Assembly: GCA_020063625.1 (NCBI GenBank)
Contig: JAICDD010000015.1
Coordinates: forward strand, 1-64,000
Direction of reading: 5' to 3'
From: Fusobacteriales bacterium
Lineage (GTDB): Bacteria; Fusobacteriota; Fusobacteriia; Fusobacteriales; Fusobacteriaceae
Length of the DNA stretch: 64,000 nt
The position numbers and the translations under genes are program-made. This document shows positions 36,294 through 36,443 of this stretch, piece by piece; positions within the stretch are counted from its first letter, which is position 1; every line of letters starts with the position of its first letter. The notes beneath the pieces were generated by a model. That model was not told the origin of the DNA, searched no databases, and saw only the letters and a list, made by a program, of their open reading frames with translations.

Positions 36294-36322
36294 TTGACAA
36301 AAATATAAAAAGTAGATATAAT
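36294..36322 (+). promoter_or_regulatory. Perfect consensus sigma-70 promoter before pyrG
   Basis: TTGACA (36294-36299), exactly 17 bases, TATAAT (36317-36322): both hexamers match consensus fully. The predicted start is near 36329 at an A/T-rich site, not at a GGG run. The transcript passes through a structured leader before the pyrG ribosome site at about 36434-36439. Confidence 0.85.
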
Positions 36323-36344
36323 AATTTTATTAAAATTAAATATA

Positions 36345-36390
36345 TTTGAGGTGGGAGTCTAAAACCCACCTCAAAAAAAAAACTTTAGAC
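36345..36390 (+). ncRNA. Putative H-type pseudoknot in the pyrG leader
   Basis: Stem 1 pairs TTTGAGGTGGG (36345-36355) with CCCACCTCAAA (36365-36375). Its nine-base loop contains GTCTAAA (36357-36363), the exact complement of TTTAGAC (36384-36390). The loops are one base (36356), one base (36364) and an A-rich linker, the proportions of a classical H-type pseudoknot. The second stem shares AGAC (36387-36390) with the left arm of the following terminator, so the two structures exclude each other. This looks like a transcription attenuator for pyrG or a short stand-alone RNA. I recognise no known riboswitch class. Confidence 0.6.
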
Positions 36391-36414
36391 GAATTTTTTT
36401 TTCGTCTTTTTTTT
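36387..36414 (+). terminator. Intrinsic terminator in the pyrG leader
   Basis: AGACGAA (36387-36393) pairs with TTCGTCT (36401-36407) around a loop of seven T, followed by a further T run to 36414. It lies 30 bases before the pyrG ATG and downstream of a consensus promoter, so read-through must be possible for pyrG expression. Confidence 0.8.
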
Positions 36415-36443
36415 ATTGTAAATTTAACTTTTAAGGAGGAAGA

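Follow-up and report, generated by a model that had tools for sequence, protein, structure and literature searches.

A conserved U-run and following C in the terminator loop of Fusobacteriota pyrG leaders, and its candidate role as a CTP-responsive attenuator

What is the function of the structured RNA encoded between fba and pyrG in a Fusobacteriaceae-type bacterium with a 1.79 Mb genome? The 64,000-nucleotide stretch of DNA analysed here (the window) carries a consensus promoter between these two genes, followed by a strong stem, a possible pseudoknot and an intrinsic terminator (Table 1), and an initial annotation had proposed that they form a pseudoknot-controlled attenuator of pyrG or, alternatively, a stand-alone small RNA. 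Direct reading bears out every coordinate it gave for the promoter, the 11-bp stem S1, the complement between its loop and the downstream sequence, and the terminator; the two strands of the second helix, S2, are exact complements, and the annotation was right that pseudoknot and terminator are mutually exclusive in the window, as the S2 bases 36387-36390 also belong to the left arm of the terminator. Searching Rfam with the entire window and with the leader returned nothing over threshold, the covariance models of the PreQ1-I riboswitch and the PyrR-binding attenuator scoring 13.5 bits (threshold 39) and 14.5 bits (threshold 54), respectively. We found no open reading frame of at least 60 codons with a Shine-Dalgarno sequence that could encode a leader peptide. 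A frame beginning at TTG 36346 is open across the leader (36346-36445), its TGA overlapping the pyrG ATG; it is without a Shine-Dalgarno sequence, its reading frame varies with the length of the T-run, and it is probably there by chance. Downstream, an ORF of 228 residues (38166-38852) with no Pfam match sits between pyrG and thymidylate synthase.

Table 1. Features of the fba-pyrG region, in window coordinates.
Feature	Position	Strand	Evidence
fba, class II fructose-bisphosphate aldolase, upstream gene	35313..36290	+	PF01116 5e-102; stop codon TAA at 36288-36290 by direct reading
Promoter TTGACA-17-TATAAT	36294..36322	+	Sequence; TTGACA 36294-36299, TATAAT 36317-36322, 17-base spacer by direct reading; transcript start expected near 36329 (inferred)
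Stem S1, 36345-36355 / 36365-36375, loop AGTCTAAAA	36345..36375	+	11 perfect pairs, -16.9 kcal/mol; arms TTTGAGGTGGG/CCCACCTCAAA by direct reading
5' strand of pseudoknot helix S2, GTCTAAA	36357..36363	+	Complement of 36384-36390, p = 0.001
A10 linker, candidate partner for slipped poly-U	36373..36382	+	Sequence; fold of slipped transcript
3' strand of S2, TTTAGAC	36384..36390	+	Sequence; 4-base overlap with terminator left arm
Terminator 5' arm AGACGAA	36387..36393	+	Pairs with 36401-36407; compensatory changes across genera
T9 run that makes up the loop of the terminator (proposed slippage tract)	36394..36402	+	T8-T12 in 59/67 pyrG leaders
Invariant C right after T-run, proposed CTP-sensing position	36403	+	C in 59/59
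Terminator 3' arm TTCGTCT (36401-36407) and T8 tail (36407-36414)	36401..36414	+	Sequence, folding
Shine-Dalgarno AAGGAGG of pyrG	36433-36439	+	Sequence
pyrG, CTP synthase	36444..38039	+	PF06418 1.9e-131; TIGR00337 863.6 bits

The S2 helix has a computed energy of -9.86 kcal/mol, with the p-value in Table 1 obtained from shuffles of the loop and downstream stretch, and the pseudoknot stretch is identical in a second genome of the same genus (G040). In Propionigenium maris (G053, locus L005) the sequences of S1, loop and S2 all differ from those of the window and the order of parts is the same, with an S1 of AGAGAG/CTCTCT within a 12-bp stem, an A10 linker and an S2 of CAGTGG/CCACTG (p = 0.010) that abuts the terminator arm with no overlap. 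Significant S2 pairing is confined to these two genera, that of the window (two genomes, identical stretch) and g13. A g9 leader (G044) has S1 and the A10 tract with an imperfect S2 that requires a bulge, the other genera tested either lack S2 or show it at chance level, and a g10 leader (G046) is nearly unstructured ahead of the terminator. With S2 missing from the other genera tested, the core of the element must be something else; the pseudoknot is probably real, but a local addition. The attenuator-type leader of the initial annotation stands, and its S2 is better than chance and was replaced independently once, in P. maris; the relatives do not support the pseudoknot as a general control element, its second helix being imperfect in g9 and failing in other genera. 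We regard as very unlikely a switch in which the H-type pseudoknot, stabilised by a ligand or a protein, excludes the terminator: its better-than-chance occurrence in two genera with fully replaced sequence, and its exclusion of the terminator in the window, speak for it, but it is weak or absent in all other genera, the P. maris S2 adjoins the terminator arm without overlapping it, and there is no conserved ligand-pocket sequence, the PreQ1 and PyrR scores lying below their Rfam thresholds. The arrangement of S1, S2 and an A-rich third loop does share the topology of the PreQ1-I riboswitch, an H-type pseudoknot with an A-rich linker, but the loop sequences differ, the Rfam score is far under threshold and the pseudoknot is not conserved.

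What is conserved across the phylum is a feature absent from the initial annotation, the T9 terminator loop and the C that follows it. Among the 67 pyrG leaders that could be read in 98 Fusobacteriota genomes, 59 have a terminator whose apical loop is a run of T8-T12 followed at once by C, and these leaders span 19 genera and three families, the outgroup family f6 included. The run is exactly T10, roughly the length of the RNA:DNA hybrid, in about 44 of the 59 (T10 also in the same-genus genome, versus T9 in the window), and the next base is C in every one. In most leaders this C doubles as a stem base, so pairing partly explains its constancy, yet it is still C in G035, G050, G051 and G052, where it is unpaired. 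The terminator arms compensate across genera (GACG/CGTC, GGCG/CGCC, GATG/CATC, GAGG/CCTC, CAGG/CCTG) around a constant T-run and C. The motif is missing from eight of the 67 leaders, namely G062 and those of genera g17, g23 and g27; three g14 leaders have an additional T8 run upstream and retain T10-C. The leader is very probably a conserved attenuator of pyrG. Two further elements were seen in subsets of leaders. The g14 leaders (e.g. L136, L135) carry a conserved insert, ATAAATCAAAACATCCG, ahead of T10 in the terminator loop, and in g2, part of g3 and part of g5 (e.g. G012, G004, G002, G026) the sequence AAATATCC lies ~100 nt upstream and is an exact 8-nt complement of GGATATTT, which overlaps the pyrG Shine-Dalgarno sequence; such pairing could add translational control.

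The element is closely tied to pyrG. An 18-base pattern, T9-CRYC-T5, has hits in 47 of the 98 genomes, about one in each, and lies at pyrG in 45 of those 47, compared with four matches in total for the reversed control pattern. In about 30 of the 98 genomes no pyrG match exceeds the family cut-off (e.g. G016, G038, G039, G092, several of this group being single-contig assemblies), and the element is missing from all but one of them. The pattern is found in just two pyrG-less genomes: the site in G039 is not a terminator, and in G047 (C33, ~33950; L206, L182), which has no detectable pyrG, a complete copy of the element with its own promoter and a GGCGA-T10-CGCC terminator stands upstream of a DUF1846 gene. 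Since the element lies near the pyrG start in most leaders and is rare in pyrG-less genomes, and since it tracks pyrG across genera with differing upstream genes, the suggestion of a stand-alone small RNA is disfavoured. Most Fusobacteriaceae leaders have promoter-like pairs located ~80-150 nt before the T-run. Some Leptotrichiaceae lack a clear promoter, and there the element precedes pyrG by 500-600 nt. In Leptotrichia-type leaders (g21, e.g. L152, L164) another hairpin, GGGAGATGGCGATTGATCTCCC, which may be a separate RNA, lies in the gap of ~500-600 nt between the T10 terminator and pyrG.

Could the hairpin be an ordinary terminator that insulates pyrG, for instance from fba, its T-run fixed by ancestry or AT bias? 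The genomes are AT-rich and fba precedes the element in about eight genera, the outgroup g29 among them, as this explanation would have it, but in genera without fba upstream the element is still found at pyrG with a promoter ahead of it, which rules out its identity as the fba terminator. Moreover, a run of T8 or more touches the loop in one of 123 other terminator-like hairpins (window and Fusobacteriota loci), so that such loops are nearly absent among other terminators, and T10 is retained where flanks and arms turn over. We consider insulation distinctly unlikely. As for the next base, A, G and C come after T-runs of at least nine about equally often at other sites. Slipped-strand phase variation of the tract is also unlikely, because a one-base change in the loop hardly affects the terminator and pyrG is a housekeeping gene. 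Another way to read the tract is as the site of a U-rich-loop binding protein, of the cold-shock type or other, acting as antiterminator or attenuator; the single-stranded U10 loop, conserved in position and length, would offer a possible site, but it would explain neither the strict C after the run nor why the tract is nearly confined to pyrG, U-binding proteins being general, and we hold this to be quite improbable.

A role for polymerase slippage would account for both tract and C. Bacterial RNA polymerase slips very efficiently in vivo on nine A's or T's, and its RNA:DNA hybrid is 9-10 bp (PMC5009743); the E. coli enzyme slips from T7 up and prefers poly-T over poly-A (PMC6260861). We propose, giving it an even chance, that the leader attenuates pyrG in response to CTP and that the terminator-loop U-run and the next C serve as its sensor. 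The sequences show the conserved anatomy and its tie to pyrG; slippage in these bacteria, its CTP dependence and the resulting read-through are what we infer. After U9-U12 the polymerase would hold an all rU:dA hybrid with CTP as its next substrate. When CTP is ample the polymerase would move on, the short GACGAA/UUCGUC hairpin would fold, and most transcripts would end at the U-tail. When CTP is scarce and UTP available, it would stall before the C and slip, adding extra U's that would enlarge the terminator loop and weaken the terminator; once outside the enzyme, and before the 3' arm exists, they could base-pair with A-rich leader sequence (in the window, A10) and cage the 5' arm. More transcripts would then read through into pyrG, raising CTP synthase and restoring CTP. 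In the window's genus and P. maris the pseudoknot may also compete for, or abut, the 5' arm during the stall.

In folding computations, the terminator loses a median of 2.4 kcal/mol with 30 extra U's, and across 19 leaders poly-U pairs increasingly with the A-rich leader; in the predicted stalled or slipped transcript of the window, A8 pairs with U8 around the terminator 5' arm. No clear A-tract is present in the g3 and g10 leaders. For the complete window leader at equilibrium, adding as many as 80 U's changes terminator pairing from 1.00 to 0.98. A larger loop would therefore not suffice to open the terminator, and any effect of the A-tract or pseudoknot would have to be kinetic. Simple thermodynamic opening by extra U's is thus unsupported for the window; it is supported for some relatives, in a set of equilibrium folds that leaves out G002 and G052. 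A related possibility dispenses with slippage: a CTP-sensitive pause at the U-run and C, which, when prolonged, would let an upstream structure sequester the 5' arm ahead of synthesis of the 3' arm, that structure being S2 in the window and other pairings elsewhere. Pausing would account for the invariant C and, in the window, for the bases that S2 shares with the terminator arm. We nevertheless think it unlikely: we found no antiterminator partner of the 5' arm common to the leaders, S2 being present in two genera only and g10 having almost no upstream RNA, and pausing by itself would not need a T-run as long as the hybrid.

How does the slippage attenuator proposed here compare with characterised systems? 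In B. subtilis, pyrG is subject to CTP-sensitive reiterative G addition at the transcript start (cited in PMC4448216 and PMC4403831). As in ours, the Bacillus system concerns pyrG and has a terminator in its leader, CTP is proposed to be sensed at a homopolymer whose next base is C, and extra nucleotides are proposed to block termination; it differs in that its run is the GGG at the transcript start and slippage occurs at initiation. The Fusobacteriota leader likewise stands upstream of a CTP synthase gene and contains an intrinsic terminator. Unlike Bacillus, it has no GGG start, and its U9-U12 run lies inside the terminator loop, so that slippage would take place in elongation, the proposed added base being U, the base of the CTP synthase substrate. 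The initial annotation had already set the locus apart from Bacillus, and correctly: the predicted start near 36329 lies in AATTTTATTAAAATT, without GGGC(U). It was thus partly right, in that this is a pyrG attenuator unlike that of Bacillus, but the core differs from the one it proposed. Among 68 pyrG loci from outside Fusobacteriota, none has T8-C, and 35 have a -10 element followed by a start-like GGG(C/T), the Bacillus arrangement.

Reiterative U addition tied to pyrimidine pools is found in the UTP-sensitive transcription of E. coli pyrBI, carAB, codBA and upp, although there slippage occurs in the initially transcribed region, without a terminator-loop tract (PMC6245113). Elongation slippage on homopolymers of about hybrid length is also known, being productive on T9/A9 runs in Thermus thermophilus dnaX and, in a Roseiflexus IS element, stimulated by a hairpin, showing that a nascent hairpin can promote it; unlike the Fusobacteriota leader, these examples serve coding-region frameshifting, not attenuation (PMC5009743). 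As the GGG start was looked for and not found, we file the slippage attenuator as a variant of reiterative-transcription attenuation outside the Bacillus type, and our search of an open-access library found no report of a U-run-C pyrG leader.

Attenuation by reiterative transcription has been described for transcript starts. If the slippage attenuator operates as proposed, a slippage tract in the terminator loop would move this form of control to elongation, and would give the cell a minimal readout of the CTP synthase substrate:product ratio, U being added when C is missing. The model predicts that regulation would be lost if the T-run were interrupted (e.g. TTTTGTTTTT), and the signature, a long U loop with a fixed next base, is searchable ahead of other nucleotide genes. 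More broadly, and with slightly more doubt than conviction, we suggest that Fusobacteriota may possess a phylum-wide, homopolymer-only sensor in which the polymerase itself reads CTP:UTP by elongation slippage at U10-C within a terminator, with no aptamer, protein or leader peptide, as a second invention independent of that in Bacillus. Two phyla would then have separately arrived at polymerase stuttering for the control of the same gene.
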